From: Ceratothoa steindachneri | Lineage: Eukaryota; Arthropoda; Malacostraca; Isopoda; Cymothoidae | Length of the DNA: 64,000 bases | Direction: 5' to 3' | NCBI GenBank assembly: GCA_963969495.1 | Contig: OZ018323.1 | Coordinates: forward strand, 68,531,720 to 68,595,719 | Part shown: positions 1 through 51,524 of the stretch, piece by piece | Numbering within the stretch: position 1 is the first letter of the stretch | Layout of the letters: every line of letters starts with the position of its first letter | Notes under the pieces: generated by a model | The model's database searches: none | What the model was told of the DNA's origin: nothing | Seen by the model: only the letters and a program-made list of their open reading frames with translations | Made by a program: the position numbers and the translations under genes

Positions 1-2470
1 CCATAATGTTTTCCTCTCTTACTTCATACATTCTTCCTGCCATAATGTTTCCCTCTCTTACTTCATGCATTTTTCCTGCCAAAATGTTTCCCTCTCTTAC
101 TTCATACATTCTTCCTGCCATAATGTTTCCCTCTCTTACTTCATACATTCTTCCTGCCATAATGTTTCTCTCTCTTACTTCATACATTCTTCCTGCCAAA
201 ATGTTTCCCTCTCTTACTTCATACATTCTTCCTGCCATAATGTTTCCCTCTCTTACTTCATACATTCTTCCTGCCATAATGTTTCTCTCTCTTACTTCAT
301 ACATTCTTCCTGCCATAATGTTTCTCTCTCTTACTTCATACATTCTTCCTGCCATAATGTTTCCCTCTCTTACTTCATACATTCTTCCTGCCATAATGTT
401 TCCCTCTCTTACTTCATACATTCTTCCTGCCATAATGTTTCCCTCTCTTACTTCATACATTCTTCCTGCCATAATGTTTCCCTCTCTTACTTCATACATT
501 CTTCCTGCCAAAATGTTTCCCTCTCTTACTTCATACATTCTTCCTGCCATAATGTTTCCCTCTCTTACTTCATACATTCTTCCTGCCATAATGTTTCCCT
601 CTCTTACTTCATACATTCTTCCTGCCATAATGTTTCCCTCTTACTTCATACATTCTTCCTGCCAAAATGTTTCCCTCTCTTACTTCATACATTCTTCCTG
701 CCATAATGTTTCCCTCTCTTACTTCATACATTCTTCCTGCCATAATGTTTCCCTCTCTTACTTCATACATTCTTCCTGCCAAAATGTTTCCCTCTCTTAC
801 TTCATACATTCTTCCTGCCATAATGTTTCCCTCTCTTACTTCATACATTCTTCCTGCCATAATGTTTCCCTCTCTTACTTCATACATTCTTCCTGCCATA
901 ATGTTTCCCTCTCTTACTTCATACATTCTTCCTGCCATAATGTTTCCCTCTCTTACTTCATACATTCTTCCTGCCAAAATGTTTCCCTCTCTTACTTCAT
1001 ACATTCTTCCTGCCATAATGTTTCCCTCTCTTACTTCATACATTCTTCCTGCCATAATGTTTCCCTCTCTTACTTCATACATTCTTCCTGCCATAATGTT
1101 TTCCTCTCTTACTTCATACATTCTTCCTGCCATAATGTTTCCCTCTTACTTCATACATTCTTCCTGCCATAATGTTTCCCTCTCTTACTTCATACATTCT
1201 TCCTGCCATAATGTTTCCCTCTTACTTCATACATTCTTCCTGCCATAATGTTTCCCTCTCTTACTTCATACATTCTTCCTGCCAAAATGTTTCCCTCTCT
1301 TACTTCATACATTCTTCCTGCCATAATGTTTCCCTCTCTTACTTCATACATTCTTCCTGCCATAATGTTTCCCTCTTACTTCATACATTCTTCCTGCCAT
1401 AATGTTTCCCTCTCTTACTTCATACATTCTTCCTGCCAAAATGTTTCCCTCTCTTACTTCATGCATTCTTTTTGCTATAGTTACCCTATCTTACTTCACA
1501 TAGTCTTCCTGCCATAATGTTTCCCTCTTACTTCATACATTCTTCCTGCCATAATGTTTCCCTCTTACTTCATACATTCTTCCTGCCATAATGTTTCCCT
1601 CTCTTACTTCATACATTCTTCCTGCCATAATGTTTCCCTCTCTTACTTCATACATTCTTCCTGCCATAATGTTTCCCTCTCTTACTTCATACATTCTTCC
1701 TGCCAAAATGTTTCCCTCTCTTACTTCATACATTCTTCCTGCCATAATGTTTCCCTCTTACTTCATACATTCTTCCTGCCATAATGTTCCCCTGTCTTAC
1801 TTCATACATTCTTCCTGCCATAATGTTTCCCTCTCTTACTTCATACATTCTTCCTGCCAAAATGTTTCCCTCTCTTACTTCATACATTCTTCCTGCCATA
1901 ATGTTTCCCTCTCTTACTTCATACATTCTTCCTGCCAAAATGTTTCCCTCTCTTACTTCATGCATTCTTTTTGCTATAGTTACCCTATCTTACTTCACAT
2001 AGTCTTCCTGCCATAATGTTTCCCTCTCTTACTTCATACATTCTTCCTGCCATAATGTTTCCCTCTTACTTCATACATTCTTCCTGCCATAATGTTTCCC
2101 TCTCTTACTTCATACATTCTTCCTGCCATAATGTTTCCCTCTCTTACTTCATACATTCTTCCTGCCATAATGTTTCCCTCTCTTACTTCATACATTCTTC
2201 CTGCCAAAATGTTTCCCTCTCTTACTTCATACATTCTTTTTTTCCCATGTTTTCCTCTCTTACTTCATGCATTATTTTTGCTATAGTTACCCTCTCTTAC
2301 TTCACATAGTCTTCCTGTCATAATGTTTACCTCTCTTATTTCATACATTCTTTTTGCCATAGTTTCCCTCTCTTACTTCACACACATTTTTCCTGCCATA
2401 ATGTTTCCCTCTCTTACCTCCTACCATAATGTTCCCCTCTCTAACTTCCTGCCATAATGTTTCCCTCACT
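1..2470. repeat. 39-bp minisatellite array
   Basis: About 60 head-to-tail copies of a 39-bp unit (TGCCATAATGTTTCCCTCTC then TTACTTCATACATTCTTCC), with a recurrent 37-bp variant lacking one TC. Because 39 is divisible by 3, both strands stay open as 13-residue repeats, which explains the long apparent ORFs; I do not regard them as genes. A divergent block containing TTTTTGCTATAGTTACCC recurs at about 1,461, 1,960 and 2,267; the first two are 499 bp apart, which points to segmental duplication inside the array. Units become degenerate after 2,230 and fade out near 2,470. The array probably lies in an intron or the 3' flank of the minus-strand gene that starts at 25,204. Confidence 0.95.
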
Positions 2471-3618
2471 AGACCATAATCTTCCTCTAGACCGTGAACC
2501 TGCACCATACGCTTTACACCTCTTATCCCTTGTTCGGTTTGGGGTCTCGGTTCCAATACTCGACCTCCCTCCCCTCCTCTAAACACCCCTTCTTCATCCC
2601 CTATCTATCCATCCGTTATCCTTCTTATGCACCCAATTAGTATTATCCTTTACACTTTACCTACCACTCTCAGACATATCTCCCTGTTGTTCTTGCATCC
2701 ACCTATCTCCCCTAGACCCCTATAATACGGCACTATTACTGCATTCTTCCAGTTTTTAAGTACTATTTCACCTTCACATGACTTACGACACACCCACCAG
2801 ACCCATTCCATAACACAAGCACACACTTTTTAGTATCTCAACGACTTCATCGTCTACGCCAGCTGTCTTCCTATTTTTCACGCTCCTCACAGTATTGCAT
2901 CCCGTTGCATGCTTACTTCCACAACCCGATACACTACCGGGCTTGTACTCGCAAATCCAATCAGATTAATATTCGCTTTATCTTCCATAGCATCCGCATC
3001 TCCGATATTTCCATCTGCATTCTTTAAGCATTCGCAATTACGCCCCCACTTTGGTCTCCACTGCACGTTTCACTTCATCATTCCGACATTCAACATTTTG
3101 CTCTTTCGAGTTCTGGACACCATTTGAAAGCCCTTCCACTACCCGCTATCCCTTCCTTGAATTTGTTTCCCTTTACCACTCTCCCCACGTTCACGCATAC
3201 TTTCTCTTAGTCTCGAAACACTCTTCCCTTTATGATTCAACAACTCTTCATCCTTTTCTTTCTCCCTTCCACGCCTCAGCCAATTTAACCTTGACCAGCA
3301 CCATCGTGTGATCGGGGCAGTCCCACCGGATATTCTTTCTTACTAGGTATAGATGAATTATGCTCTCAACTCCCCTCTCATTTGCTCGACCCGTGTGCTT
3401 TTATGCCTATCCCCCCTACCATCACAGAATTCTACCACCCACTCTCTATTTTCATTCTCTCCAAGTGTAGCCAAAATCCGAGTTATTCCATCTCTTGTCC
3501 TGTCGTCTACATATTCGTCCATTCAGGCTATCGCGCTGGCACAAAGACTTCGAGCTATTTTTGGTCAATTCTTGTCCGATTCCCCTCGTATTAAAATAAT
3601 AAAATCCACCAAACTTAC
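2471..3618. other. Unassigned sequence downstream of exon 7
   Basis: Sequence following the exon 7 donor on the minus strand. I searched by eye for the next exon of the gene (expected to begin with two bases completing a Ser codon) and did not find one. Short ORFs on both strands have no recognisable motifs. Confidence 0.4.
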
Positions 3619-3864: not shown

Positions 3865-6800
3865 CTGTAGGAGAAAAATTCTTAGGAATCCTTTTTATGC
3901 TCATCTCGCACCGCTAACCCACAGTGGGGTCACTGTGCATCAATGCCACTCCGGCACGAGTAGATGGGATATCTTATATTCTAATTTAGTTTAAAGTCCC
4001 CCTTCACCCCCTTACTTGGAATTATAGTTTTTATAGGGATTCCTCAACATGTGGCAAGGATTAATTACGAAGGAGGTCGCCCTCGATGATTTAACTCTTG
4101 GGTTGTTGTTTTTAACCCAACCTCGAAGTTGAGCAAGTTAGTTAAATCCAGAGCCGGTCTCAAGCCCGGATAAATGGGGAGGGTTGCCTGTCAAGAAGGG
4201 CATCTGGGGCATAAAACAAAGGCACTAACAAGGGATGAAATGCTTGAAAACAGAGCAAATCATCAAACGTCTAACCTCAAGGAAACCAAAATTGAGAAAA
4301 TCCGACCCTAAAAGGCTTAAGCCAAGTTAAGTTGTTTTTAGCCCGAGAATGTTTGGCCGAAAGGCTCCGAACCCCTGATGAAGGCCACGGATGGCACTGG
4401 GCGTTCCCACAAACTTTCCAGTGACTATGTGTTGTCCGCGTATGTAGTTGTGGTTTATGTAGTTCATTGTGCTGTATGGTGTGGGTGGATCTGCTACAAC
4501 CTGGAGAGACGTCCACGATGGCGTCACCCAGCCTTTTCTGGTAGCTCAGGAGGGTTGGGTGGCGCCCACTTCTCAGTCCCACCAGGTGTACCGTCTTCTC
4601 GCGATGTAAGGTGGCTTCAGATGTGTGTATGTCAGGGGGGCGAGCGCACGAATGGAGCGTAAGGGAAGGGGCAGTTGACATCGTTTGAGTATAGTATCTA
4701 ATGCTGGGTGTTGTTTTGATGTTTCTTGGTGTATGCGATGTTGTGTAAAGGATGTTGGACCATGTGTGGATCACTTCGTAGCCAAAGACCGTCAAGTTTA
4801 TTGCTGAAATTTTTTTTACCACCGATTCGCATCGTCTGTCACCAATTGCATGGGGACCTACAGTTAACGCGGGATCCGACCAAAGGTCCCAAAAAGGTGC
4901 AGCCCAAGCCAGGTCAAGCAGAATCGGGACTTCATCCGGCGACTAGCCATACCTAATACAGCTTAACTTCGCTCATGGCGGAGACTGGCATTCCCTCTCG
5001 AAATAGTATAGAGGGAAAGGGTTAAAATGTGAAAGATTTTTGTGTTTGTAAAGAAGAGGTGGAAAAGTTGAGTGGCGTTGATGGTGCGCCGATCCTACTC
5101 TAAGGGGAAGCGGCTGATGATGAAAATGAAGATTATGCATCGAAAAATTACGAATTTTGAAAGCTATTTTGGTATCCCACTTGTTCCATTATGTTAGTGG
5201 TGTCGACTTTCCTTGAACAAGCGTTTCAAATGAACGCCATCAACTTATCGTTCTTGACGCCCAAATGAGGGATGAACTAATCGAGTGGAAACGCAGCTTC
5301 TTAGTTAAGCGACAATGTTAAGTGAGGTTAGTGGAGGGAATAGACTCCGATTCGGATCAACTCTGTTTGGGCGACTGCCACAGGTTCAAGTCGGTATAAC
5401 CTGTGGGACCCCACTGATACAAGTGTCAGATGGTGCGAAGTAGTAGAGAAAACAGTGCTAAAACAACAACACAATTCCCAGAAGAGTAGATAGAAGGGTG
5501 AATAGATGGCGCTCAACCAATAAGAGAAGGGTGAATAGACTCCTTGTATCAGAGTAGACATTACCGATGCAAACCTTAAAATTACGAGATGATAAAAAGC
5601 TACGGATAAAATAGGGTAAAAGACCCTTCATAAAACTGCTGTAAGATATCATGCCGCCAGGGGTATCATAAGCTTTCTCTATATCAAATAACACAGCCAG
5701 AAACGTGGTCTTTTGACGAAGGCCACCCGTATGGCGAACTCCAAGCGAACAGGCAGGTCAACAGTGCTATGGTGCTTAGGGAAACCACACTGAAAAAGCC
5801 ACATCAGACCAATTGACTCCAGAAACAGATTAAGTAGAAAGTTTACCATTTTCTTCTCCATCAACTTACTATCACGGCTAGTTAACGCGATTGGAGGGTA
5901 ATTATTAGGATCCAGAGAATCTTTGCCAGGCTTTGGAAATGGCAATACCACGGTAACTCGCCGGGTGGATGGGTAGGAGCCTGTTATTCAGATTAAATTA
6001 AAAACAATCAAAATAATTGAGTACGGGGATGGAGGTGACGAATAAGATCATTGTGTACCTGGTCAAGGGCGGGAGACGATGCGCACTGTGAAAGAGCAGC
6101 ACGCAATTCAACGACTGTCAATAATTTATTGTAAGGGAAACTAGAAGTTAAGGAAAAAACAGGAGGGCAGGATTCCATGTAAGTCTTAAAGGTTGAAAGT
6201 TCCTCTGGATAGCGATCATTATTAGCTACCGACAATTGATCGGATACTAGAGACCCCTGAATACTTAATGTCAGAGCAGTATGACCTGCATATCGGTTCC
6301 GAATCTTATTAACCATCTTCCAGACCTTCGACGGATAGACCGAAGAGATGGACGAGACATAAGTTCGCCAAGAAGTTTGACGGGCTTGTCGTAGTCCTCT
6401 GGCGCAAAGCCTTAGTTCTATTATTTTCAATCTCGTTAAGTGGCGTTGAGTTTCCACGATACCGGGAGTGGACAGATTTGTAGGCCTGTACCACGGAGGC
6501 ACGACCGCGGTTTCACCATGGTACAGGTGATTTATGGATTCTAAGAGACCCTCTTGGAATGGTACACTCAGGAGCATCACAGACAAGGGACGTTAAGAAA
6601 TTCCCCGCTGAGTCAGTCATTAAAAACTTCCAACGAGGCGTCGGTGTATGATGCTTCTCGAAAACCATGCCAATCAGCCTTCTGTAAGTCCCATTCGCCC
6701 AGTAAAGATGAATATATGAAGCACCCAGTAAATATGAATATAAGACACATACTCAGTAAAGATTAAATAGGAAACCCACCCAGTAAATATGAATATATGA

Positions 6801-9800
6801 CACATACCCCAGTAAAGATGATGGCACAGTAGAGATGATGAATATAGGATACTCACCCAGTAAGAAAAAAGAATATAGGACACTCACCAAGTAAAGATCA
6901 ATATGGGAAACTCACCCAACAGCAAATCATAGTTCCAGTTGATTCCACTCTTGAACTGAATATAGGAACAAACAGTAGCGAATTGGTTCGAGATCATCTC
7001 AAGCCCTTTTCGGAAGCGTATCACATTGTGATGGCGGGGAACGAATTCGAAGCATACGTAGTCAGTTTGACTGAGGAGAAAAGGTGCTGTCAATCTCATT
7101 TTAAATAATACAATATAACCCATTTCAGCTACAGCTAAACACTATCGAGGATCCTGTATTGGCCTGGCAAGCTCATAGTTACGTATCTTGATATTTTCCT
7201 GTAGCTATTTTTCCCCCCTCAAATTTAAAACGTAATAGCAACAAGGGCGTATCACGCAGAAAATTTGTAAAGAATAATCTGCAAAGAAAGTGAAGATGTG
7301 TGGAAGATATATAGCCACAGATCCTTTTGCTGGCATTGGGGCCGTATGCGATTCCTAGAGGATCACACACGAAGGTGCATTAGAGGAAGATCAAATGTAG
7401 CAACAATTTACGTTGATTGGTACATCTGAATGTCTAGAAATGCCAATGTTGTCGGGAGTATTTCAGAAATAGTTGATTATATATTTAAATGTGTTAAATA
7501 TTCGGGTTTCCCTTTATAAAAAGATGAATGATAAAAAGATAACATGGGAATTCTTAGGGGAGATGGTATTTTCTGACTGAACTGTGAAATAACCTGTCGA
7601 GGAGGTGTAGGAAAAAATGTGATGAACAAATAAAGGAACGGAGCGTGTGGCGAGTTTGAACACCTTCACTGCATCACTGGGATCAGTGTACGCGCAGCCT
7701 AGTCGACTCAGCCATCGTGAATTCCCCAAAGACTTTCAAGCTGAGTTTATAAACCACCCTCTTGCTATCTTGCCACGCTGCAAACCCAATCTTAAAATTG
7801 AAAATAATAGTAATTTAATTACTTTGTGCCCCCCTAGTGAAATTCCTTAGGACGACAGGCTTGACCTGATGTAGTTCTCCCAGAGATCAGGCTCCATGTA
7901 CTTGTAAGTTTTGGTTCAGTTGTACTTGTTGGGCATGTTGTGAATGTACTGCCCCAACAGATTCTTGGTGGCAACGGGGGAAGATGTCTATATCGGTCAG
8001 GCCAGTGTTGTATTTATAGTGTTAAGTGATGATCGCACTGGAACATTGTCAGGGTGAGCCGAGTGTAACGTGGGAGGGATTAGTTATCTGCGTTGATATC
8101 CGTAGAATGGCTTTGAGGAGGTGCTTTAAACCTTGGTATTGGAAGCTATGTTATGTGTGTGAATTGTTGCCTGGCTACAGGGTGGTGGGATTCCTTGTAC
8201 AATCTTTGTATAGTATGTTATTGGAGTTGTGCATGTATCGCGGAGGATGGTAAGGGTTTTATATGGGTGACTTTGGTTACACATACTAAAAATAATGTTT
8301 GATAATCATTAGTTTAGAGAGCAAGTGGTTTATTGGGGGGAGAGGCTGCGGGGATATCTCTTGGCGAGGTGGAGTAGTTTGTTTTGTGTTTTCTTTAGTG
8401 TGCTGAGGTGAGTGGATGCGAGTTCGGCTGTCCAAGCTGTAGATCATACGTGAATAAGGGACGGATAAGTCCCACACTCACGACTTTTGAATAGAGTTAA
8501 AGCGCATGGGATCGATGGAAGTATTTTTAGGTGGATTCAGTCCTAGTTTAGCGAGAGAGCAAAGAATTAGACGGGATTAAATCTGAGTGGGGGAATGTAA
8601 CAAGTGGAGTTCCTCATGGGTCAGTGTTGGGGCCGTTCATATTCCTGATATATGTATATTAATTATCTTGACTTGGGTATAAGTAGCGACCGGAGAAAGT
8701 TTGCCGATGGTACTAAGTTAGGATTATAGGGTCTGACTCTGATGGTGAGGTATTACAAAATGAATCGACGATACTATCCCAATGGGCATAGAAATGGCCA
8801 ATGGAATTTAACATAAGCAAGTGTATTGTACTTAGTATAGGTAGGTGTAATCCACTAAACAATTATAAACTGAAGAGTTTTACGAAGGTCTGAATGCCAA
8901 TGTGTCCTGGTAAGGTCTGACCTCTGGCCCAGAAAGCAATGCATAAGTGCAATGAATAGAGCTAATAGGGTATTGGGGTTTATTGGGAGGAGTGAGTAAT
9001 GAATGCTGACGTCATTTTGAAACTGTATATGGCATTAGTTAAGCCTCATATTAATTATGGGGTGCAATTTTGGTCACCATATTATAGGACGGATATTTGT
9101 TTGCTTGAGTGTCTGCAAATAAGGATGACTAAGATGATTCATGGGTTGAGGAGCTTACCTTATGGTGAAAGGCTTAAGATACTAAATCTCCATACATTAG
9201 AAAGGAGAAGAGTTCGATGGGGACTTGAATGGTCTTCAAGTCAGTAAAAGGTTATAATAGGAGAGACGTAGGTATGGTTCTTATTTTTAGTGAACGGGAG
9301 AGGACACGTAGGATGGGTTTAAGCTGGACAAGTTTAGGTTTAGAAAAGAAATTTGTAGAAATCTGTTTACATATGGAATGGTAGATGAATGGAATAGGCT
9401 CACTAGGCAAGCGATAGAAGCGTCCTCCCTACGTAGTTTAAGGATAGATTTATAAATGAGGATGTTAGGTAGGATTGAAATGGGCGATGGGAATATGAGC
9501 TGCCTCATATAAGGCTATTGATTAGCCTTTGCAGTTTCCTTCTTTTCTTATGTTCTTAAAACCCACCATGAAAATGGAATTCCAACACAATAAGTAAAAC
9601 CTATAAAAAAAAACTTTGCCAAATTTTAAGACCTTGAGAGGGATTTCTAAGCCCTTCTGAAAGAGGAAGGGGGTCGTTGAACACTGCTAAAACCCCCCAA
9701 ACTGGAAAAAAACACCCTCAAATTTTAAATACCAACAACCCTAAAAATTCCTTGAAAAAACAGAGTGAGGTCCCTAAACCCCATATGAGAAGTGGGGGAT

Positions 9801-12800
9801 CGAATACAATTTTTTTTAAAAACCTCAAAATCCCCCACCCTTTGGAAAACTACATGCCCTCAATACCCTTTTAACCCCTACCCTCCTCAGCGGGAACCGT
9901 AAAGCCCCCTGTAAAGGTGGAATTCGAACCAACGAGGGCAATTCCGCAAAAGTTGAAAACGAGATTCCTAAAGAAAATAGTGAAGTTTTGGGATGTGAAC
10001 ACGCCTGAATGGTATGAAACCCGAGTAGTCTGAAGAGGAGACTACTCTGGGCACTTGGGACCAGACGGCACGTAAGCTAACATGGGTGAAGATGAAGGAA
10101 GTGATAATGTGGGAAAGATATAGAACGCAGATCCACTTGAACGCGTTGGGGCAAGAAAGGTACGAAACCCTCCAAATGTCAGCTGCAGTATACTGGTCCA
10201 TGCTACACATGACTACCCCTTGAAGGGGCCAGGAGGGCGTGTCATTCCTCCAGTTTTGTATAGCAGGGGTTAACCCCCTGCTACAACCGCCCCTCTTCAT
10301 CATTTAAAAGTACGACCCGAAAACCAACGAGGGGAGGTTCCTCGATAAAGCGGTGAAGTTGGGAAGGGGGGAAGTAATGACCCACCATCCGTCGATGTTG
10401 AGGCGTGCCATGAGGTACCGGTTGTCCTTCTGCTCCTTGCACACGTAGATGGTCCTCCTGAAGCGCCCCTCATCGGGGTAAGCGGTCTCGATGATGTGGG
10501 TGGCGTTAATCTCGACGTCAGCCTCCGTGTGGGCGGTGTTTACCCAGAACCCGGTGAAGTTCTGGGGTAGTAAGCAGCCGGGTTCTTCCGGCTTCGACTT
10601 CACTGCGAGAACGCGGAGGGAAAGAACCTCGCTTCAGTAAACAGTGTTGGGAGGAGGGTTCGAAGGGGCTCTTGGTTGTAATCAGAGAAATGGCAGTCTT
10701 TTTTAACGCATTAAAGAGTAAATTAATTGAAAACCAACGAGAGAATTTCCCCAAGTCATCCCTGGTTCGATTTCATTAGGAGATATGAACCCCGCTTTGA
10801 ACAAAAGTGCCAACAGTGCTGGGAGGTTCGAACCGTCTTCCCAACAGTGCTGGCGCTTTTGTTCAAAATGGGGTTCATCTCTCCCAATAAAATGGCACTC
10901 TTGAATCGCAATAAGATGATAAATTAATTGAATAGTTGAGAACCAACGAAGGAATTGCCGATGGAGAACGCGAATGAAAACTCCGCTTGAGACACGAGTG
11001 CCAACTTTGTTTAGTGTGGGATTCGAAAAGTGACTGGTGCTCTCAAGTACAACCCTGACCACCTTTTGAGTCGATTAAGGGAAAACGGGGTGATGTTAAA
11101 GGGGATTACCAGTGTCATTAGGTTATGTTTAATCCAACGAGGGCATTTTTGGTGAAGAGATGAGGCAGACAAGTGAAGAAATGATGGACCAAGACAAAGA
11201 CAAGGAATAGGGATAATAAGCATGACATAAGACACCGACATCGATCCGTTTTATAGCTCTCCCGAGAAATACTTGAACCCACTTCCTGGGTTCAAAGAGT
11301 GGGTTTAAGTATCGTGTTACAACAGCAACGCACCGTTCGAACTCACAGTAACTAAACTACGAACTTAGGGCATCATTGAGTGATAAAGAACAAAAATCTA
11401 GAATCCAATCTAGAACCTTGCTATCTTAAGTTGCCCCTGGCTAGAGGCCATCCCCTAGGCAACGGACTCTAAGAACTCCGCCGACCAGATGGGGTTCTTT
11501 CAGACATCTAACACTCCGCGTTGTAAGTTATTTTCTAGGTGTGCGAGTTGGACATATGTATATGTTGAGATGGCTTTTCTTTCGCCATGAATCAGCATTC
11601 TGTGGACATGTGTATATGTGTTGAATCGTGTCTTCTTTTAAACATCTAGAACGTCTGCGTGTGTCGGGTATGTTGCGAATATATGCTAAACTGTCTCTTC
11701 TCCCACACAGCCAGCACCTCGTGTTATTAAAGGCTTTGATTAAGTATGCGAGTCTTGAGTATGTATAGGCTGTCTAGGTTGTGCAAATGTCGGATATATA
11801 GTGAATGTGGTGAGCTGTCTTCTCACAAAATTCCAATACCCCCGTTGCAGGCTTTTTCTGAGTTGTAAAAGTCTCAGGTATGCTGTATACATCTGTTGAG
11901 CTGTCTTCTCTCAGACATCCAACACTCCCTGGCCCCTAGCTAAGACTTTGTTTTAAGTAAGCTAGTATCGGGTATGTTGTGAACACGTGTTGAATTGTTT
12001 TCTCTCAGACATCTAGCACTGCATTGTAGGCTTTGTTTTAGGTGTGTGAGTCTTGTGCATTCTGGTAATGTGTTGAACTGTCTTCTCCCAGATATCCAGC
12101 ACTACATGTTGTTGTTTTGTTTTATTTGCTATGTGCAAGTGTTGAGCATGGTGTAAATGTGCTGAATAGTACCTTGTTCTTAGAGGCTTACTGTGTAGTT
12201 TCCTGTGTTGGCCAGTCCGGTGTGGTCTTTATATGTTTAGTTTTGGTTGGTGACTTCACCGGAGCATTGTCAGGGCGACCCGTTTATGACTTGGGAAAGA
12301 TGCTTCTTCTGGGTCGATGTCTGGTGAAGTATCGAACAGGAGAGGGTTCGGATGGCTTGTTGTGTTGTGTGAGTGATGAATGCCTGGTTTAGAGTAGATT
12401 GGTGTAGTGTAACCTTGTTACTCTGCGCATGATTTTCAAAGGTTGGTAGGGGTCTTGCAAAGTCTAGCCGGGTTGGACTCCCATCTGGTCACTAAACATA
12501 CCAAATGTGGCTGACCTTTGTTCGTGGTACAAGTCAGAATTTCCACTCATGATATACCTGAACCAAAATCTACAAATTTGATCTCATCCCGGGATCAATA
12601 ATCGGGCTTACCAGGAGTCCGTTTTCGGCCTTACCCGGGATCAATCAATTTGTGGACTTACGCAGGGTCCTCTTTTGGGCTAACCTTCGATCTTTCTTAG
12701 GTCTCGCCAAGGGTCGTTCTTTTAGTTTACTCAAGGCTATAACTAAGGCTTACGAGGAACCACTTTCGGGCTTAACTGAAATTAACCTTAGGGCTTACCT

Positions 12801-15800
12801 GGGACCATCCTTGAGGCTTAGCCGAAATTAATCTTAGGATCATTTTTCAGGATTTCCCGAGCTCATTCTTTCGGTTTAGCGGGTACCATTCTTTAGTCTA
12901 GGTATGGTCCTTCTTGAGACCTACCTGGGGTCATCCTAAACCGAACTGGCGAGTTCTCGGGCGTTTTGAGAGGGGAGCATTCCGGGGTAATGGATGCTCC
13001 CATATAGATGTCATCATCTCGATTCCGGATGAAACACCGGAACTTCTCGTCCTTCCGGGACTCCTTCGTGTTGGCGGCGGCGAAGTAGTGGTTCTTCCCG
13101 ATAAACCAATCACCCAAACAAGAGAATTCGCTCACTAGTCAGAGAAGAAAACAAAAGACGTGATCAACGGACTAAAAGAATGGAGTGAAAGAGAATGGTT
13201 TTATGAACAGTTATATTACGAAAGGTTACCATGTTAGGGTGATAAAAAGAATAGTTTCCAGTGGCATTTTTTAGAAGTTTACCCGACAAAAAATTAGTCA
13301 CATGGCGTTAAAGTTTAAATTACAGGGCCTGTAGTTAGTATTGAACGAGGAAAATCGGGAGGTTACGACGTAGCAAGTGTGCGGCAGGATCCATAGATTT
13401 CGAAAGGGTGGTACGATCAGTGCCTGTCTCGTACGGTGTAAAATGAGGTTCAAAACAGATGTTATGAAGTGACTGCATTTGGGCGTGCCAAAGTCCACCC
13501 GTACGGTCATACGGGTGTACCTGCAATGGCAGAAGTCCAGGTTTACAGGAAACTCGCTCAAGAATTGTAGACTTTAAGGACTATAGTGACGGACCGGAAC
13601 CGTCAGTGTTTCACGGGTTGTGCCTAAAAGTCGTTTCTCTTGAAGGTAAGAATTGCTGCAGGACGTCAACCCAGGTCCTTGGGCACCTATTACCCAAAGA
13701 ACACTCTGCAGGAAACTTACAGTGTGGGTGAGAAGACACAAACAGTGGAGCGGGGAGGACTGGAAATGCGAGAGACGAATCCCTTTTCTGTCTGTATGTG
13801 AATTATGCCCGGCGTCGTGTTCATCGTGGACCTCATGAGGCCCTTAAGGAAGACTGCATTTAGGGTGTGGTTCAAGCTGCGGGAGGCTCTGTGATGTACT
13901 GGGGGTGTTTTAATTATTCGGAAATGGGTCCCTTGATTGAGGTGAAAGACAATTTGGACCATTATGCCTACATCAGATGCTAACGACCAAGTTTTCCCGT
14001 TTGCCTTTCGTCTTAACGCAAAACGTAACAACCCAATCCCTCTCTTCCGGCATGACAACTCTCGCGTTGACCGGGTTAGAACTGCGACTGACTGGCAATG
14101 ATGAACATTCAAAAACAATCACACATCTGGAGTGGCCCGCAAAATCACCGGATCCGAATTCCATCGAAAATCTAAGGCGCTACCTCGAACGTGTCAAACG
14201 TCAGGGATGGCATCAACGCAATCTGGCCGAATGGCACAATTCTGTGATGCAAGAGTAGCTCAACACAATGATGGCGCCTACATCCAGAACTTTATCCAAT
14301 CCATGCCACCTCGAATCGTAGCTATTATCAAGGCTCGGGGACGGATGGGGGGGGGGGGTATTACACGTTATTAGGTACGCTCCCGTCTCGTATAACTAAT
14401 ATTTTGTCCGGTGAGCTTATTTGGAATGGGGGTGTTTTAATGAGTACGCATCAGGGCTTGGAGAAAAACGCAGTTCCAGATATCTATTTGAAAACGCCAC
14501 CACAAATTCTACCCCCTGGAATTGGTCACAAGACGAGACCGCAAATCGTACCCCCTGGAATTTGCACAAGACGAGACCACAAATCATACCCCCTGGAATT
14601 GGTCACAAGGCGGACAAAAAATTATACCCCCTGGAATTGGTCACAAGGCAAGACCACAAATCACTACCCCACAGAATTGGTTACAATACGGAACCACAAG
14701 TCGTACCTCCTTGCAAAGACTCCTTGATTCCTTCGCATTTTGTGTAGTTGATGATGAATTTCTGGTTGGCGATGAGGAACTGGTTTCCGGGTTCTTGGCA
14801 AGATCGTATTATTTGCTCTGGCTTATCGCATTCGCCGGTAAAACTGAAGGGAAAAGGCAGAAATATATAAAAGAGCTTTTACACAAATCTTATTTCTCGC
14901 GCTTTTTGTGAAATGGTTTTAAACCACCTTTCCACTCGTACTCGGCTCTGCCTTGGCGGGGGTGGGAATGAAAGAAAATAAAAAAGATTAAGAATGGATG
15001 GCACTTTCCTAACAAACCTCACCAACCTCAATTGAATGTTGGAGTCAAGAGGGCGCATATGAAGCCTCCCAAAAAATAAAAGGACAAATGTGTATAAATT
15101 AAAGGTAGTCAAAGTAGGATTGTGTAATAATAATTAAAATTATGGTCGATGAGATACGGATGATTACATAAAAGGGGGATGCAAATAAAAGTGAAATGAA
15201 TAATAAACCAGAGGAAAGTGTCCAGAAGGAAGGTGAATGAGAAACAAGAACTTCTGAAACGAAGGTAATTGTATATCCGAATGGGAACAAGAACTTCTGG
15301 AATGATGGATGATGATCCGGATCGGAATAAGAACTTCTAAAATGGTGAATGATGATCCGGATCGGAACAAAAACTTATGGAATGGTGAATAATAATCCGT
15401 ATGGGAACAAGATCTTCTGGAATAGTGAACGATGATCCGTATGGGAACAAGAACTTCTGGAATGGTGAATGATGATCCGGATTGGAATAAGAACTTCTAA
15501 ATGGTGAATGATGATCCGGATCGGAATAAGAACTTCTGGAATAGTGAATAAAAATCCGTATGGGAACAAGAACTTCTGGAATAGTAAACAATGATCCGTA
15601 TGGGAACAAGAACTTCTGGAATGGTGAATGATGATCCAGATTGGAATAGGAACTTTTGGAATGGTGACATAATCCCGATGATGATGATAATTTTTTTTGG
15701 AATGGCGACATATGATCCGCATGGGAACAATAACTTCTGGAATGGTAACTGATGATCCGGGTGGGAACAAGAACTTGTGGAATGGTGAATGATACGGATG

Positions 15801-18800
15801 AGAACACGAACTTGTGGAATGGATGGTGAATGATGATTCGGATGGGAACAAGAACTTCTGGAATGGTGAATGATGATCCTGATTGGAATAAGAACTTTTA
15901 GAATGCTGAATGATACGTATGGGAACAAGAACTTCTGGAATGGTAACTGATGGTCCGGATGGGAACAACAACTTTTGGAATGGTAGCTGAGGATCCGGAT
16001 GGGAAATGATGATCCGTATGGGAAAAAGAACTTCTGGAATGGTAACTGATGGTCCGGATGGAAACAACAACTTTTGGAATGGTAGCTGAGGATCCGGATG
16101 GGAAATGATGATCCGTATGGGAACAAGAATTTCTGGAATGACGAATGATGATCCGGATAGGAACAAAAACTTCTGGAATGGTAATTGATGATTCGGACGG
16201 GACCAAGATCTTTTGAAATGCTGATTTATGATCCTGATGGGAACAAAAACTTCTGGAAGGATGGCGAATAAGGATTCAAATGGGAACAAGAACTAGTGGA
16301 AGGAAAGTGAATGAGGATCCGGAACGGAACAATAACTGCTGGAAGGAAGGTGAATGAAGACAGGAAGGAGGCTGTGAGTGATCAATGCATAAGGGTTGGA
16401 GGGTGATTGCAAGAACTATGGAAGGATAAGACTTGATTTATTTAGGCAATGTGTAGAGATATTTGAACTGAGCGAGTAAGAAGAATAACTGAAGGTATGT
16501 ATAATTAATGACCAAGGTGGATTTCGGGCAAATAGGGTGTGTGTGTGTGTGTGTGTATAGATGGCCTGCCGCTCCTCCAGGTGGCAAATATAACTTTAGA
16601 CGGGTAAATGGACAATTTGAGAGGGATACTTGGTATGCGAAAAGTGTATAGAATGAGCGACGTGCTCACAAATATTTGAAAGTACGAACAAGCTCGTACA
16701 AAGGACAGATATACAAAGGCATAATTATTTTTCGAACAGCATAACTCCTCCAAAGGTATAAACTTGGCCCGTCTAACGGAGAAATCCCCAAGTTTTTCAA
16801 TATATGGCAAACACAACTAAAACCACACCTCTGGAAAATGCCAAGACCACCAAGAACATATTCATCTTTTTGCCCGCTCTCATCGACTGATATTCACAGC
16901 TCTCTTAATTGATTCCACCCCGGTGTGGATATCGCCTTCAAAAGAGGCGAATATTTCGTTTAAAAATGCTTAAGTTGGAATTTTTGGACCTTCCACAACC
17001 TTACCTGAAGCGGTTTTGGTAAGCGAACTGCCACACTCCCTCCAGCGCCGACCGACAATTCTTGGGCACAAAATTCTCGTTAAAAAGGGTCACCATGGCC
17101 TTGTTTTTCTTAATCTTATTGCAAGAGTCTTCCAACGATGGGGAATACTCGGGGGGGAACGTAACGCAACCACCTATAATAACCATATAAAAATGACTAA
17201 TTCGACGGAGTGGGACCTCAAATTTAATTAATCAGTATTTTTATTATTATAACTTAATACGGTCAGCAAATGGTACCAATCGAAGCAAACAATAATGTTA
17301 AAGTGTACATAAGTAGATACTAGATAGGTTAATATAATTGTTTGAAATCACTTTTATAGTCATGCAAAGTGTTACGCACACGGACGCTGACGCACAAAGT
17401 CACCCAACTCGGCGAAGTTTATTATTATCAAGAGGTAGGAAAAAGAAAATGAGTGCGGGAAAATTGGAGAACACAAGTACAACTAGAAGGTGCGGTGGGT
17501 AATTTGTCGCCGTTGATAATTCTGAATTCTGCGCATGCGTGTTGTGTGGCGTCGGTTATCTCTTCTTCATATCATATTAGACTCAGTTGTGTATCATCTT
17601 GAAAGAAACAATACCATGGGTGAATTCAATCATCTAAGATTTTGGAAAAGGCACGCTATGCTGCTTGGTATTCACCCTGGGAGATCCAATGCGAAGATCT
17701 CCTAGTTCTTGGGTGTCAATCTGAGGACGGTGCAGAGATCGGGTAAGAGCTGTATAAGTTAGGCGTGGAAACCTCACTCTAAGCGTTCTGATACGAAAAG
17801 AACCCCCGGATTTGTTCGGGAGATCCAGGCCATCATTGATAAGGATCCCAGCAATCCAATGAGGTCCATAGCCAAGGACAAGTGAACGTCAGTCTCTCAT
17901 CACGTAGTTATCGCATGAGGACATCAGCTACTACTCACTACAAGATGAGTAAGGACCACCTTCTGTCGCAGATGATGAAGGGCAAGAGGAAGGATCGTGT
18001 TGAGAAGCTTGTGAAAGAACTGAAGCATCCCTTGAAACTTGGCATGTTTTTGTCTTGTTTTTTTCAGACTAGAAGAATTTCTGTCAGCACCAGATGATGA
18101 ACTCGCAAAACAACCGATGGCTTGGTGTGCCCCCAAAGATGTACTAAACGTCGTAAAGACCAAGTTCCCGTCCCATATCATGGTGTTAGTGGTGGTCAGT
18201 AGCGAGGACCACGTCATGCATCCGTTTATGTTCCCGGAGGGATACATCAAGTGTCTAGAGGAGATGATGATGATGTGACCATCTAGAAGGCCTGCAGCAG
18301 GTTCCGACGTCTCCTAGAGTCCGTGGCTGGAGGCCGACAGCGATTTCATTGAATAAAATTAATAATACGACCCTTCAGATTTTTAACATGTAACTTTGGG
18401 AAATATATTTGTATAGATAAACTGTTATTTTTTTATATTGAAGTTAGGCGACAAATTGCCCACCGCCCACTATAGAAAGCACTCAGAGCTCATACCTCCG
18501 TCCAACGCCTTTAATTCAAACTCGAACAAAAATCAACTAGTTTCCAGACTAAGCCAAAACAATAGGTATTATAGTGTTTAGAATTAAAAAAAAAATAATA
18601 CTGGCAAATGTCTATTCGCGGAAAATATAAACATTCACATGAAAAATAAGAATCCATACCCCCCAAAAAGATTACAATCATTAACTTCAAACTTCTACAC
18701 ACACTTACATTTAAATCCAAGGGTCTCTAATATTACCGTACTCTAATATGTGCATAACATATTATAGGTCTGCTACAAACATAATCACATGTTTATTATC

Positions 18801-21800: not shown

Positions 21801-24800
21801 CAACACTTCAGCAGAGCATGAACCCGTCCCCACCCCGACCACCATCTGACAGCAAAGCCCCCTCCCCCCGTACCAGGACACTACTTCTAATACCTCTACA
21901 ATAACCTCAGTCGCCTATCACTAAATCACAACTTAATCAAATACATCCATCCACATTACCTTCGCCTCAAGACATTTGGACACACTACTACCAGACAACA
22001 TCCTAAACGAACCCCCTTCCTAATAAACCAATTAGAGAAATCACTGCACACAACACGCAGAGTAATCCCATCTCAACTCACGTCAGGCCACTCCACTATA
22101 CTTCAAGAATACAAGCAGAATAAACCTTGCCCCGACACAACATGAAACATATGCAACCAAAGCCCAGGCAACATCAAACACCTACTTATAGATTCCCCAA
22201 ATCGCACTACACACAATATTTCATCTCTTAGGGACCTGTTGACCGACTCAGGGAGTGTGGTGGATTTCCTAGTGGCAACCCACCTCGCAGAGAAGTAGGG
22301 GCGGGGGAGTAAAGTAAGTCACTGGTCTGTGCAAACATTTTACCTAAAATTACTCGCCCACAACGCACCACGTGACTCTCAACCACTATTTTGAATACCA
22401 AGAAACAGACAAACATGACGTGAGAGATGACTTCGAGCTGCCGGTACTTGTGGTGTAGATATAGCAATCGCCCCTCCGTAGTCTACTCCTTTGCTACTCA
22501 CTCATACACTTTTCTCCAAAAGTCCGTCCGTGAGCCTCACACCCGCCGTGTCCATATAGATAACAAAACAGGCCACTAACCTTGTTCAAGCATTTTGCTA
22601 ATCTCTCTGCGCCTCTGAACCCCTCCCCCGCCTCTTCTCTCTATTTCCCAGGCTAAATTTTCTGCTTTCTTCTCCCACAAGATAGTACATATCCGTTATG
22701 GCCTACCTTCTGTTGTTCGCCCTTTCCTAAAGAAACAGAACCTGGACTCAAACGACCCGGCAAACTCCCGCCAATCTCGCCAACTCTTATTCCTCTCGAA
22801 TGCCTTGAAAGGCTGTGTCAGATCGGATTCTAGCTCACCTGTCCTCCTCCAAAGCTAATGAGATTTTTTCAGTCTGATTTTAAGACTTGACACAGCATTG
22901 AATCAACTATTCTGTGTGTAGCGGATCGCCTTCCTCGTCCGATCGACACTTGTCACCCTTTTATTAATGACACGCAAATCTATATTTCCTTTTCCTCGTT
23001 TGAGGCAAGAGAAACCTACAGGTGCATAAAATACCATCCCTGAATGGCTCTCGAAGAACTGTCCGAAATTCAACCATGACAAAACAGAGGTATTACTTGT
23101 AAGTACTCCTGCGCACCTGGTTCACTGCAGAACTATTGTTTCCTGTCTTAACTTTGGCTCCTTCCATACCCTCATTTCTGACAGGGTTAAAAAAATGGGC
23201 GTCATCTTGATACTTATCTCCCAAAACTCACGTTACTAGCGTGTGTAAATCATTTCTCGTTTTCTCCTTAATATCAGCCGCATCCGCCCAATTTTAAGCG
23301 CAAGAGCTTTGAGATCGCCAGTCATGCCTTTGACACCTCTCTTCTCGCTGGATCGCAGGTTTCCACCCTCCGACCTCTCTAACTTGTTCAAAACTTTGAA
23401 GCTCGTGCTCTCTTCTCCGCACGGAACCTTTCTCTCGCGAACTGCACTGACTGACCATTCTATAGAGAATCACCTTTAAGGTCTTTCTTACACACAAGAC
23501 AATAAGTGCTGCAGCTCCCTCATACCTCTCTTCATCACCACCCCTAAGAACCCCACGCTCTGGCTCTGCCCCCCCTTCCCCTCTACCGTTTGTTCCTCGT
23601 CGTCTGTGCTGCATGGGTGATCGTGCTTTCTCTGTATTTGCTCCGAGAATGTGGAATGACCTCGTTGCATATGCCCATTGCCATACCTTGATGCCTTCAA
23701 GCTTGCCTCTTAAAGACTCCCTCTCCTATCCTCTCAACTTTTTCTCTAGTTGATAGATAGGCGCTGTGTGAAGGGCCATTCATGGTCATGAAAAGCGCCA
23801 CAAAAAAACATATTACTATCTGCTTTTACTCATATACCCTTAATATAAGTGCAATGCTTTTAACCTACACTTTTATGTAAGGTAGCAGCTACAGGACACC
23901 CGCCCAAGCAAAGTAGACCCGAATTAGGAATTCTTCCGCAGACTAATCACGCCCGATGTCACTTAAGTCCGGTTGGTGGAGTTCCTCAAGGCGGCCGGCC
24001 TAAAGGAGGGTCCCTTGATTGGGGGCAACTAGAGTGACTTTCAGGAATAAAGATAATTTGTGTCATCATAATTTCATCCATCTTGTTTATGAAAGGAATC
24101 GGGGGGTCTAAATAACGAGGGTGTTTTCACTTAATAAAAGAGACAATACATGTTCTATTATAAAAAGAAACTAACGAAGACATTTCCAGTTTTTTGAAAA
24201 AGAATATTCGTAAAGAAAGTGAAGTTAATGGAAGTACGGTAGATCGAGAGCTCGAGTAGCCAAAAGATGCAACTACTTGAGGCTCCTGGGATAAGGATAC
24301 GCAACTCTCGATTTAGTAGATGGTCAGATTACGAACCATATAACTTCATAATAAGAGAAGTGCTCAGAAGTACGAAGAAGTTCCTACTTAGAATCGAGGT
24401 ACTCAGAAGTATGAGTGCGCTTGGTTCGTACTACAGGGGTATGTGCTTAGAAGTACGACACGTCACGTAATAATTTCGTATAAGGAGCAGAGGCAATTGG
24501 TAGTAGCTTATATCTTGACCCTCACCCACCTCCCCATGATGGGTTGGCTTAAGAATCAATAATAGTAAAGTGACGATGGCATGTGGCTCTTGTACGATCG
24601 ATCCCAGTTTGAATCCAATCTTTGACCCAAACACCTTGCCCATTTTCGCTTACCCTAACTATACCACTTTCACAATAAAATATTTGCTATCATTTAGATA
24701 TAAATAGATAAATACATCCTCTCAATGAGCTGACTTTCTGGCTTGGTGCGGAATGTCTAATTTAGCACCAAAACATCAATATTGGCGCGAAAATGGCAAA

Positions 24801-38901: not shown

Positions 38902-41900
38902 TTAAATAATAGGGAGAAGGCCGGCCTCCCCCAAGAAGTCAACAAGTCCACAAGTCAATGTGCACGAATCTCTCCCGAGCACAAGGGACAGGCGGTAGCG
39001 ACCCCGCCCATCCCGGTACTGAGACAGGTATCGTGCGCGAAGATCACCCAGACTGGGACATTCGACAAGAATGTGCCGAACAGTCTGGGGGACGACGCAG
39101 TCGTTGCAATAGGGCGCAGGCGAGCGCTTCATCAGATAGCGATGCGTCACACGAGTGTGTCCGATTCGGAGACGACAGAAAGCAACCTGAAGCCGCCGCG
39201 GCATTGGGGGATAGGTCCATGGGAACAGTCGCGGCGAAATGGCACGCAACTTTAAGTTCCCTTCGACCGTCTCCCATCTTCTTTGCCAAGCAGTCCGAAG
39301 AGCTGCCCGTATTCCTGCCATGTAGTCGGTGTGAGGAAGAGCGAAATGCTGGTCCGGTCGCAGAGACCTCGCGGACTCTTTGGCGCCCTCATTCCCCGCA
39401 ATTCCTACATGTCCAGGAACCCAGCAGAAGATAATCTCGACATCTGCCCGGCTCGCCAAAACCGTGGCGTCACGGATATCGCGAACCAGGGGATGCGGAG
39501 ATTCCAATGCCCCGAGAGCACTCAGGGCGCTTTGTGAGTCGCTATAGATCACAATCCGGTCTCCGAACCGGGCACGTCGCGTAATCTCCCGTACCGAGTG
39601 GTGTATTGCCACCAGCTCGGCCGTGAAGACAGACGCAGCGCCTGGTAGAGCCCCGCTGACTTCAAACAGAGGGGATACGGCGTGGAAGCCGACCCCCTCT
39701 TGGGACTTGGAGCCATCCGTATACACTGGCACGGTACCAGCGTGACACGATGTGTGCTCCAAAAAGGTCGAACGCAATACTCCCGGCGCAGTACAAGCTT
39801 TGGGAGCAGAGGCGTGGCGACAAATAGCCAAATGTGGTACCCTCCAGGGTGGCGTCCTGGGCAGAACCAGGGACGCCACCGGCCCGAGAGCTATATCTAC
39901 CTCTCGAAGGAGTTTCCTGGCCCTAAACCCAAAGGGCTTAGGGTATGACTGGCGTCTCTCGGCGGCATAGGCACCATCGAGATCAGCTGCGGATGCAGTG
40001 AGAGCTGTTGGCGACTGAGGGAGGCGCCGGGCTCGCGCGTACAGGCGAGTGATGCACTGCAGGCGGCGCAGAGCGAGTGGCATCTCCCCAGCATCGACCA
40101 ACAGGCTCTCAATGGGGGAAGTGCGGAAGGCACCGGTCGCAAGGCGAAGGCCGGTGTGGTGGATCGAATCCACCTTCCGCAATAAACGCTCGGCTGCGGA
40201 TGCATAAAACTCGCATCCGTAGTCGAGCTTCGAGCGAACAAAGGATCGATAAAAAAGTAAGGCGGTAGTCCTATCAGCGCCCCAAGCGCTGAACGTCACG
40301 GAACGGAGAATGTCCATGGCGCGGGTACAAGAGACCCTAAGGCTGCGAATATGAGCCTCCCAGGTGAGGCGTCGGTCGAATACAAGACCAAGGAAACGGT
40401 GCGACTCAACCACATCCAGGCGCACCCCATTAAGAAACAAATCTGGGTCGGGGTGAAGCCGTGGATGGCGGCAGAAGTGCACCACCTTAGTCTTGGCCAA
40501 AGAAAACCGAAACCTGTGCGCTTCGGCATAGCGAGAGACGCGGTTCAATGCCTGTTGGAGTCGACGCTCCAGAGTTGGCATCTGGGCCGCGCCAAAAGAG
40601 ATCGAAAGGTCGTCCACGTAGAGCGTAGCGAGAACATCTTCCGGCAGCACCGAGGTGATGCCGTTGATGCTCAGGGCAAAGAGTGTGACACTGAGGACAC
40701 TTCCCTGCGGGACACCCTCTTCCTGCTCCTTTGGGCCGGAGAGGGCTCCCCCCACCCGTACGCGGAATCGACGATCTCGCAAAAATTCAGATATAAACAT
40801 TGGGAGGCGTCCCCTCGCCCCCATCGTGTGGAGAGTCTCCATGATACCGTATCGCCATGCGGTATCATAGGCCTTCTCCAGATCAAAAAACACCGTGGTG
40901 TAGTGCTGTCTACGAAGGAAAGCCTCGCAGACGGCATTTTCCAGTCGGAGCAGAGCATCCGACGTGGAGTGGAACTTACGGAAGCCGCACTGTGCAGAAG
41001 ACAGATGGCCTCCGCAGTCCAGGAAATAGGCTAATCTAACATTTACCAATTTCTCCATCAACCTGCACACGCAAGAGGTTAGAGAGATTGGGCGGAAACC
41101 GGTCGGAGTAGAGTGATCTCTCCCCGGCTTGCGAAAGGCGAGCACAGTAGCGATTCACCAGGAGTCTGGGAGAAGACCTTCCACCCAGATCCTGTTGAAC
41201 AAATCTAACAGAAAGGCCATGCCTCGCTCACCCAGGTGTCGAAGCATGGCGTACGGGACATCGTCCGGACCATGGGCGGTGTCCGCGCACGAAGCGAGAG
41301 CGGAACGCAACTCACAGTAAACTTGTCGTTGAAGGGTTCTCCGCCTCTGGAGGTAAAGTCAAGCCGGCGGCCTTCCGCGATATCACGACGTGCATTGAAT
41401 GCTGGCGGAGCAGCATCACGGCTAGAGAATGCGGAAAAAGCGGTCGCTAAGGATTCCGCCACGGACGCGGGGTCCGAGATTGCGGTCCCATTCTCCTGGA
41501 GAACGGGAGGGGGGTCCTGCGAGAACTTGCCCCGAATCCTTTTGACTCGCTTCCACACCTCAGCTAAAGGGGTCTTCCCGTTAAGTGAAGACACGTATGC
41601 CCGCCAAGAAGAGCGGCGGGCGTGCTTCGAAATATACCGGAACCTAGCCCTAGCCCGACGAAATTCAGCGACAGTGAAATCGTTCGGGCGGCGCTTATAG
41701 CGCATGTAGGCATAACGCTTCTGTTTCAGGGCCGTCTCACACTCGGCCGACCACCATGGGAGTGGTCGGCGTGCAAAACGGCCAGACGTCCTAGGAATAG
41801 TAGTCAGGCCCACGGCGATGAGGTTGCCGGAGAAGAACTCAACGGCCTCATCTACCGACCTAAACTCCTCGACTGAGATAGAGAATTCAGTCATTTCCTG

Positions 41901-42715
41901 AAATGCAGGCGACCGCGCCCGCGCCAAGCACCACCGAGGTGGTCTCTCAGGCGGCAGTTACCCTGAAAATGATATTTGAATGGGAAAGTGATCACTACCA
42001 TGGAGGTCATCGACCACCCCCCAATCAAAATCAGGCTGTGCATCCGAAGAGCACAAAGATAGGTCAAGGCAAGAAAATGAAGCGGTTCTCGGACAGTGAT
42101 GCGTAAACTCATCCACATTTAGGACACCCATCTCAAGCTCTTCGATCAGATCGGCAAGGACTTGTCCCCTGGGATTTATGGAGTAATCTCCCCAGAGAGG
42201 ATGCCTGCCGTTCAGATCTCCAAGCAAGAGATAGGGCCTCGGCAACCGTGCCACGACGCGGCGGAAGCCCCCCGCGTCGAAGTCAGCTGACGGTGGAATG
42301 TACGCAGAAATGATAGTATACCTCCTATCCAGGTGCAGCTGCACAGCCACTGCCTGAAAGGAGGTATCTAAAGAGAAAGGAAGAACAGAGACATCATGCC
42401 GGGTGTAAACCGCGCATCCCCCAGCCCGGCCATCCCGCGGTGGTGGGGTCGCAAGACCCTTATACCCCGGGAGGGCAGACAGGGGGCACGCGCCTAGCAT
42501 GGTCTCCTGCAAAAAAAAGCTAACGGGGAACGGGACGAGGCGAGCCTCCGCAGCTCCTCCCAGTTGGCCCGGAGTCCACGGCAATTCCATTGAAGGAATA
42601 TGCCCTCCAGGCCTAGCTCGGAGGAGACGCGGGGGCCCTCCTCGAATTGAATACCCTCACGGGAATGGCCGTACGCTTCCCGGGGGCAAAACCCCGGGCG
42701 CTGTTGGCCGGACAA
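38902..42715 (-). pseudogene. I-like ORF2: endonuclease, reverse transcriptase, RNase H
   Basis: The product would nick target DNA, reverse-transcribe element RNA and degrade it. Order: APE endonuclease (LQWNCRGLRANWEEL; LQETML with catalytic Glu; LLLGDLNGRHPLWGD; SDHFPIQ), linker, RT (PISLTSCVCRLMEKL; motif A FFDLEKAYDTAW; motif B GVPQGSVLS; motif C YVDD), RNase H (VPVYTDGSKS; FTAELVAIHH; IYSDSQSAL; WVPGHVGIAGNEGAKES, where the usual final Asp is not evident), and a C-terminal CX2CX7HX4C (CNDCVVPQTVRHILVEC). Lesions: a frameshift in the A8 run near 42,512, an in-frame TAA near 41,955, a frameshift near 41,315, and TGA for an Arg codon near 41,157. The last 747 codons (41,145-38,902) are uninterrupted. 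The start overlaps the end of ORF1 by roughly 100 bp and is uncertain. Confidence 0.88.
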
Positions 42716-45017: not shown

Positions 45018-45547
45018 GGTGACCCTCTTTTTAATACGGGACGCAATAGCTCATCACCTCTCGCAGTTGCCCGCACTGCGAGAGGTGCTTACAAGCCCGG
45101 CAGAGCCAGGCGCCGCCATTCGGGACCACCCCTCCCGCCTGGTGGCCTGGCAGTCCATCGGCATGGCAGCTCCACCTTGGACACGGCGTAAAATTGATAG
45201 AATGTGAAGAGGAGAGGAAAGGGGATGTGAGGAAGGTATGGGTGGGGATGAAGCAGGTTGTTAAAAAAAACCCATCCCGAACCGGAGCTGAGGGGTTAGG
45301 GAACAATGTCCCCCCTCCCCCCAGCCCCGATCCGGGGTGGTTGGCTTGAGAAGAAGGTCAGCATCTACCCTGTGAAATTAGAGGCTGACCAGAGAAAGTT
45401 GTGGGAGAGGTTGTATGAAAAGCAACGAGGTAGGGGAGAAATCGGGCTATCTGAAGGAAAGAAGAGAGGCTAAGCTGGGGCCGGACGGAGCGCTGGATCC
45501 CGTCAGCACGGCGGCCAGGATGGCAAATCGCCGCGCCCCTTACGGGG

Positions 45548-51340: not shown

Positions 51341-51524
51341 ACCCCTGTAGCAAGATTAAGTGAGGAATTAAAATGAACATAGTCATTCGTGGCCATTGTT
51401 TAAAATTCACTACCCTTGCCCGCGACGGCCCTACTTTGACCTCAATAAAGCATCGGCCGATGGAGGAGCAATCTACGCCATCACTACTCCTCCTTGGGAA
51501 TCTCAGCCCCAATCCTACACGTGG

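Follow-up and report, generated by a model that had tools for sequence, protein, structure and literature searches.

The locus described here raises the question of why several introns of one gene should each begin with a tandem repeat whose units carry the sequence of the splice donor at which the repeat starts. It lies in a stretch of 64,000 nucleotides from the isopod Ceratothoa steindachneri (assembly GCA_963969495.1, contig OZ018323.1, positions 68,531,720 to 68,595,719 of the forward strand), which we call the window and within which all coordinates are given. Judged by the similarity of its predicted protein, the gene is undicht (udt), on the minus strand at 25204-3619, and three of its seven introns (3, 4 and 6) open with a tandem array whose units are in phase with the GT of the real donor. 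The first-pass annotation of this DNA had proposed that these three introns begin with donor-carrying arrays, and this was borne out by the agreement of the exon model, the decomposition of the arrays into units, and consensus sequences built from distal units only. The three arrays are listed below in the order of their introns.

14716..14491, minus strand: array C, intron 3, with units of 38-40 nt (GTACGATTTGTGGTCTCGTCTTGTGACCAATTCCAGGGG); seen by Tandem Repeats Finder (TRF; 14499-14711), decomposition and cross-validation
12934..12577, minus strand: array B, intron 4, degenerate, with units mostly of 22-23 nt (GTAAGCCCGAAAATGATCCCGG); seen by decomposition and cross-validation
6918..6692, minus strand: array A, intron 6, with units of 24-31 nt and a consensus of 28 nt (GTGAGTGTCCTATATTCATCTTTACTGG); seen by TRF (6698-6821) and decomposition

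The ends and units of these arrays were obtained by wraparound alignment, with seed units chosen by eye. Array C reaches up to 10 nt into exon 3, and its intronic part runs from 14706 down to 14491, comprising a junction unit and five copies, the final one incomplete. The intronic part of array B extends from 12924 down to 12577 (a junction unit and 15 copies), and that of array A from 6915 down to 6692 (a junction unit and eight copies, again with an incomplete final copy). Taken by itself, TRF finds only array C to cross its donor; on array B it covers only 12768-12838, starting 86 nt downstream of the donor, and its call on array A starts 94 nt downstream, while wraparound alignment carries both arrays up to their donors. 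The units of the three arrays resemble one another no more than shuffled sequences do, and no further copies occur in the window. A single dispersed repeat or transposon inserted at three donors was therefore ruled out within the window, as the annotation had also held from the differences in sequence and period.

Because the seed units had been chosen by eye, each consensus was rebuilt from exon-distal units only and compared with the donor-proximal stretch, against background windows that overlap one another and leave the arrays out. The scores were 44.9 in intron 6 (highest background value 17.1), 29.5 in intron 4 (13.1) and 50.3 in intron 3 (15.1); for each array, none of the 1730 windows and none of 500 shuffles did as well. 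The first segment past the donor (28, 68 and 39 nt in introns 6, 4 and 3) likewise outscored all 3782 windows in every case. The register itself is sharpest in two introns, where the junction unit fits best at phase 0: in intron 6 it matches at 22 of 28 positions, against 12 for the next best phase, and in intron 3 at 29 of 39, against 15. A consensus-free lag test, which takes the match rate at each lag over the first 230 nt and compares it with 1041 background windows outside the arrays, flagged donors 1, 3, 4 and 6 of the seven and none of the seven acceptors. As good a value was reached by no background window for introns 3 and 4 and by about one for intron 6, the corresponding z values being 8.3 for array C, 6.2 at lag 23 for array B, and 4.0 for array A at lag 55, about twice its unit. 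Donor 1 was flagged because a further array, E, starts 95 nt downstream of it; this and the two remaining arrays in udt introns are given here.

24875..24765, minus strand: array E, intron 1, 40 bp, starting 95 nt from donor 1 and unlike the donor-1 region
16355..15230, minus strand: array D, intron 2, 40 bp, 649 nt from the donor and without donor-like sites scoring at least 5
2471..1, minus strand: array F, intron 7, 39 bp, about 63 copies, 1147 nt from the donor

With six TRF minisatellites in the 23.8 kb of udt introns within the window, it might be supposed that random minisatellites of a repeat-rich genome came to lie beside donors by chance and that their donor-like motif is coincidental. 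Array F shows how little the motif alone proves: its units (an early one is GGAGGTAAGAG) carry the donor-like GAA|GTAAGAG with no known exon adjoining, and it holds 28 sites per kb scoring at least 5. Since such a motif occurs away from any known exon, it is position and phase that carry the argument. As to position, TRF ends place four of the six intronic arrays at most 100 nt from a donor, where 0.22 would be expected (P 1.75e-5), although this limit was set after the distances had been seen; with a limit of 10 nt only the array of intron 3 counts (one of six, P 0.02), as chance placement would have it. With the hand-decomposed ends, three of the six arrays start at a donor, which occurred in none of a million simulated placements and for which a formula gives about 4e-8. 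Together with the phase, lag and exon-tail tests (the last given below), these simulations make chance placement highly improbable. Arrays D, E and F were also considered as old donor arrays displaced by insertions, and this was ruled out, as they are unlike donors 2, 1 and 7: 49%, 38% and 37% of the background, respectively, matched as well. The lowest values came from comparing array E with donors 7 (0.8%) and 6 (4.1%), which belong to other introns, and they were obtained among many comparisons.

Two other repetitive features were seen in the same introns. At 13577-14370, within intron 3 and downstream of array C, lies what we take to be a Tc1/mariner-like fragment, recognised by eye in the translations of open reading frames (ORFs). 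A varied and irregularly spaced motif like AACCAACGAG, possibly a worn repeat, was noticed by eye in introns 4 and 5, at about 9930, 10322, 10728, 10940 and 11133.

The position of the arrays relative to the donors depends on the exon model, which was obtained by locating udt exons with tblastn and joining them through GT-AG introns. The exons of the model are as follows.

25204-24971, minus strand: exon 1 as modelled, the most upstream coding exon located, starting CKIPSIIRGTWFSFE, from tblastn with relatives and an open join to exon 2; donor GAGA|GTAGGT at 24970
17173-17005, minus strand: exon 2; donor TCAG|GTAAGG at 17004, without an array
14843-14707, minus strand: exon 3; donor GGAG|GTACGA at 14706
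13134-12925, minus strand: exon 4; donor CCAG|GTAGGT at 12924
10602-10386, minus strand: exon 5; donor GATG|GTGGGT at 10385, without an array
7070-6916, minus strand: exon 6; donor TTGG|GTGAGT at 6915
3864-3619, minus strand: exon 7; donor TATA|GTAAGT at 3618, without an array at the donor

The acceptor of exon 1 was picked by eye, and no exon was located upstream of 25204-24971; the intron numbers 3, 4 and 6 hold if this is exon 1. When spliced in silico, the seven exons form a single open frame of 455 codons. Single exons match the Pfam domains DUF7042 and DUF7043, exons 4, 5 and 6 above the curated cut-off and exons 3 and 7 below it. The 376-residue protein of exons 2-7 has 301 relatives, and the best 120 of the 301 are led by decapod crustaceans, several of them named udt. 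When the protein is aligned with ten chosen relatives, Armadillidium vulgare comes out as the most similar, at 84% identity, and no other of the ten has the two-residue insertion (GEKDLLLQTR) that it has in common with the gene studied here; among the best 120 of the 301, the same species ranks 13th, with a local identity of 73%, its predicted protein being without some pieces. Junctions 3/4, 4/5 and 6/7 of the translation of exons 2-7 show no indel against four decapod rows. Wrong exon boundaries were thus ruled out by the open joined frame and by the array-bearing junctions, which are free of indels in these four rows, and the protein relatives would fit the use of the exon-proximal donors at these junctions.

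A further line of evidence comes from the exon ends. The unit of array B copies the last ten bases of exon 4 at eight of ten positions, a match that none of 3782 background positions equals. These ten bases encode Met-Thr-Pro, which is invariant or nearly so in the alignment. Because of this conservation, the exon sequence appears to be old, and the array probably took up exon bases, with the tail of exon 4 as the source of the repeat. Such a clear copy of exon sequence in the unit is seen in one of the three arrays. It bears on another explanation, by which arrays arise everywhere beside exons, but those that are seen are the ones with a donor in their units, since splicing of the exon then survives the turnover of units. 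This would account for the phase locking of all three donor-touching arrays, but by itself leaves the exon-tail copy in intron 4 unexplained. It would also sit poorly with intron 3, where the junction unit has an identity of 0.79 and only one of the five copies has diverged further (0.92, 0.87, 0.95, 0.97 and 0.77), so that the real donor seems to have undergone little turnover in that intron; no clear difference is seen in intron 6 (junction unit 0.86, copies 0.71-0.93). We regard such survivorship alone as very unlikely.

The annotation had offered two interpretations, namely that donors seed tandem duplication, or that arrays of decoy donors are tolerated or used. The first fits the register and the exon-tail copy of intron 4, and tolerance fits as well; use of the decoys is the part that found no support. 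Scored with general base frequencies of splice donors, the seven real udt sites lie between 4.2 and 11.4, and eight of 28 donor copies score at least 5 (four of eight in intron 6, four of 15 in intron 4 and none of five in intron 3); the udt gene at large holds four such sites per kb. The copies in intron 3 are weak, the best of them scoring 4.8 against 6.6 for the real site.

It is conceivable that the copied donors work, by competing with the real donor or by binding the U1 small nuclear ribonucleoprotein (snRNP), with the effect that unproductive splicing would tune udt output or that early polyadenylation within long introns would be suppressed. The eight stronger copies, two of which exceed the real donor of their intron, speak for this, as does the precedent of human IFI6, where repeat units serve as donors (PMC4526556). 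When the GT-bearing copies were spliced in silico, all 18 of 18 gave a premature stop, which for the decoy at 6887 arises through a frameshift in exon 7; this is the outcome that a poison switch would require. The protein isoforms expected of an IFI6-type system are not predicted here, for the same reason. Working donors should also be preferentially conserved in their donor columns, and no such conservation was found, the ranks among circular shifts being 18/28, 7/22 and 17/39. That every copy in intron 3 falls below 5 counts further against this possibility. In intron 4, GT is missing from all five of the copies closest to the exon but present in seven of the ten farther out (P 0.019), a pattern expected if near decoys were harmful; intron 6 shows the opposite, its strongest donor copies being those nearest the exon. 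Overall, we find it unlikely that the copies have a function. As far as sequence can tell, the evidence favours tolerated by-products rather than working parts, since decoy use would give stops, with occasional use possible.

The explanation that we consider probable is that the udt arrays are minisatellites that arose by duplication of the exon-intron junction, known as mirages in amphioxus, and then underwent ordinary repeat turnover, their donor copies being tolerated by-products. The term mirage is said to stem from Canestro 2002. While the location, register and independence of the three arrays and the exon-tail copy in intron 4 are direct observations, the steps that follow are proposed. 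The seed would be a short tandem duplication across the donor, including the last few exon bases and some 20-35 intron bases, which could arise by slippage or microhomology repair. The array may then have been enlarged into the intron by slippage, unequal exchange and conversion, while growth into the exon would be blocked by coding constraint, and for this reason the array would seem to start exactly at the donor. The real donor is the first to be transcribed and sits at the edge of the array, which would protect it; its early transcription, along with its recognition as part of the exon, would also keep it the site that is used. Use of a decoy would lead to premature stops and would either be selected against or end in degradation of the RNA. 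The occurrence of arrays at three of seven donors and at none of seven acceptors fits this protection of the first donor.

Several observations weigh against this explanation. The junction unit of intron 4 matches at only 11 of 22 positions, with tied phases and none unique, and an alignment begun at the donor finds array B only from 12893. Exon-tail copies are weak in the other two introns, at six of ten positions in intron 3 (equalled by 2.2% of the background) and five of ten in intron 6 (9.5%). Two decoys outscore the real donor (11.3 at 12798 against 10.0, and 8.9 at 6887 against 8.5), so that tolerance is not obvious. The excess of donors over acceptors, three of seven against none of seven, is not significant (P 0.096). 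A simple self-similarity test missed intron 4, with a score of 16 that 44% of the background reached, and picked up introns 3 and 6 only at about the 6% level; the arrays formed part of its background, and it has been superseded by the cross-validated and lag tests, whose backgrounds are free of them. Lastly, eight residues at the junction of exons 3 and 4 are missing from the A. vulgare record, as is the greater part of exon 6, gaps that may reflect faulty gene prediction.

Beyond this gene, we tentatively suggest, as a rather doubtful extension, that introns in this isopod lineage have repeatedly been lengthened from their 5' ends by tandem duplication of donor junctions. Such lengthening would show a strong bias of donors over acceptors, since an upstream donor, being ahead of its copies in transcription and binding, would shield the exon from them, while a copy of the acceptor would be met before the real one. 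If this were true, the 5' ends of introns would be a general nursery of minisatellites.

No second host gene of the window was found in a Pfam scan of 20 ORFs out of 291 listed, a list that covers the longer ORFs from 17200 onwards and passes over the region of a 52-bp array. Three of the 20 matched reverse transcriptase, one matched a hAT transposase and 16 gave no match; in a separate set of nine ORFs, five were udt exons and four had no Pfam match. Long open frames at 38905-45050 on the minus strand, among them one that encodes a reverse transcriptase domain, possibly belong to one fairly recent retrotransposon, and a C-terminal dimerisation domain of a hAT transposase lies at 49259-50185 on the plus strand. 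The 52-bp satellite at 51523-56466 is long and homogeneous, with about 95 copies and 95% matches.

The first-pass annotation knew of no described system of this kind, a claim that has to be given up, as the amphioxus mirages (PMC3087553; PMC3902484), human IFI6 and the 31-bp repeat of human CBS were already on record. Boundary minisatellites have been noted in lancelets and single human genes. The amphioxus cases are minisatellite-like tandem duplications of exon-intron boundaries in Adh3, the globins BflGb6 and BflGb9, PGBD5 and troponin C, with AG/GT signals in many units and splicing reported as undisturbed (PMC3087553; PMC3902484); in BflGb6 the edges of the cluster escape homogenisation (PMC3087553). 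The udt arrays resemble these in starting at or spanning a real exon-intron boundary, albeit with a weak junction unit in intron 4, and in having imperfect copies, as PGBD5 does (PMC3902484). They differ in that amphioxus mirages are found at donor and acceptor boundaries in cephalochordates, whereas the udt arrays are found at donors only, three of them in one arthropod gene. The udt units are degenerate and also shorter than those of the globins (150-160 bp, against 10-72 bp in Adh3).

In the minisatellite of human IFI6 (6-16, G1P3), two repeat units further downstream serve as donors, so that three mRNA species arise (PMC4526556), whereas all GT-bearing udt copies would give stops. The human CBS variable number tandem repeat (VNTR) c.1444_1467+7 has, by its name, a unit of 24 exon and seven intron bases (PMC2630376). 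As in CBS, the repeat unit of the udt arrays lies at an exon end; the CBS repeat is polymorphic, with 16-21 units of constant length, whereas the udt arrays have fewer and diverged units in the one sequence at hand. Units of the CBS repeat create extra splice sites. Human UBC and VCX3A are described as having dual-specific splice sites and as examples of introns created within tandem repeats (PMC10809524). There, too, AG|GT-bearing tandem repeats interact with splicing, but these repeats create introns inside coding repeats, while the udt exons are ordinary and only the start of the intron is repeated. Repeats at human exon-intron boundaries are also discussed in PMC2812944. For isopods, the available text on the A. 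vulgare genome gives simple repeats as 18% and contains nothing on donors (PMC9107163), and a paper on Daphnia tandem repeats uses none of the terms splice, donor, intron-exon or exon-intron (PMC3152781). Neither boundary minisatellites in arthropods nor three at the donors of one gene appeared among the literature matches listed, in several cases a part of the hits, from a collection without most subscription papers.

The udt arrays thus appear to belong with the mirage, IFI6 and CBS kind, the new part being three independent cases at the donors of one arthropod gene. Their number suggests that repeats can be seeded at donor junctions time and again, and that strong decoys a short way past the real donor may be tolerated in splicing. 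What distinguishes a real donor from copies close by, and how introns lengthen, are old questions that can thereby be put to the test in a plain survey of the genome.

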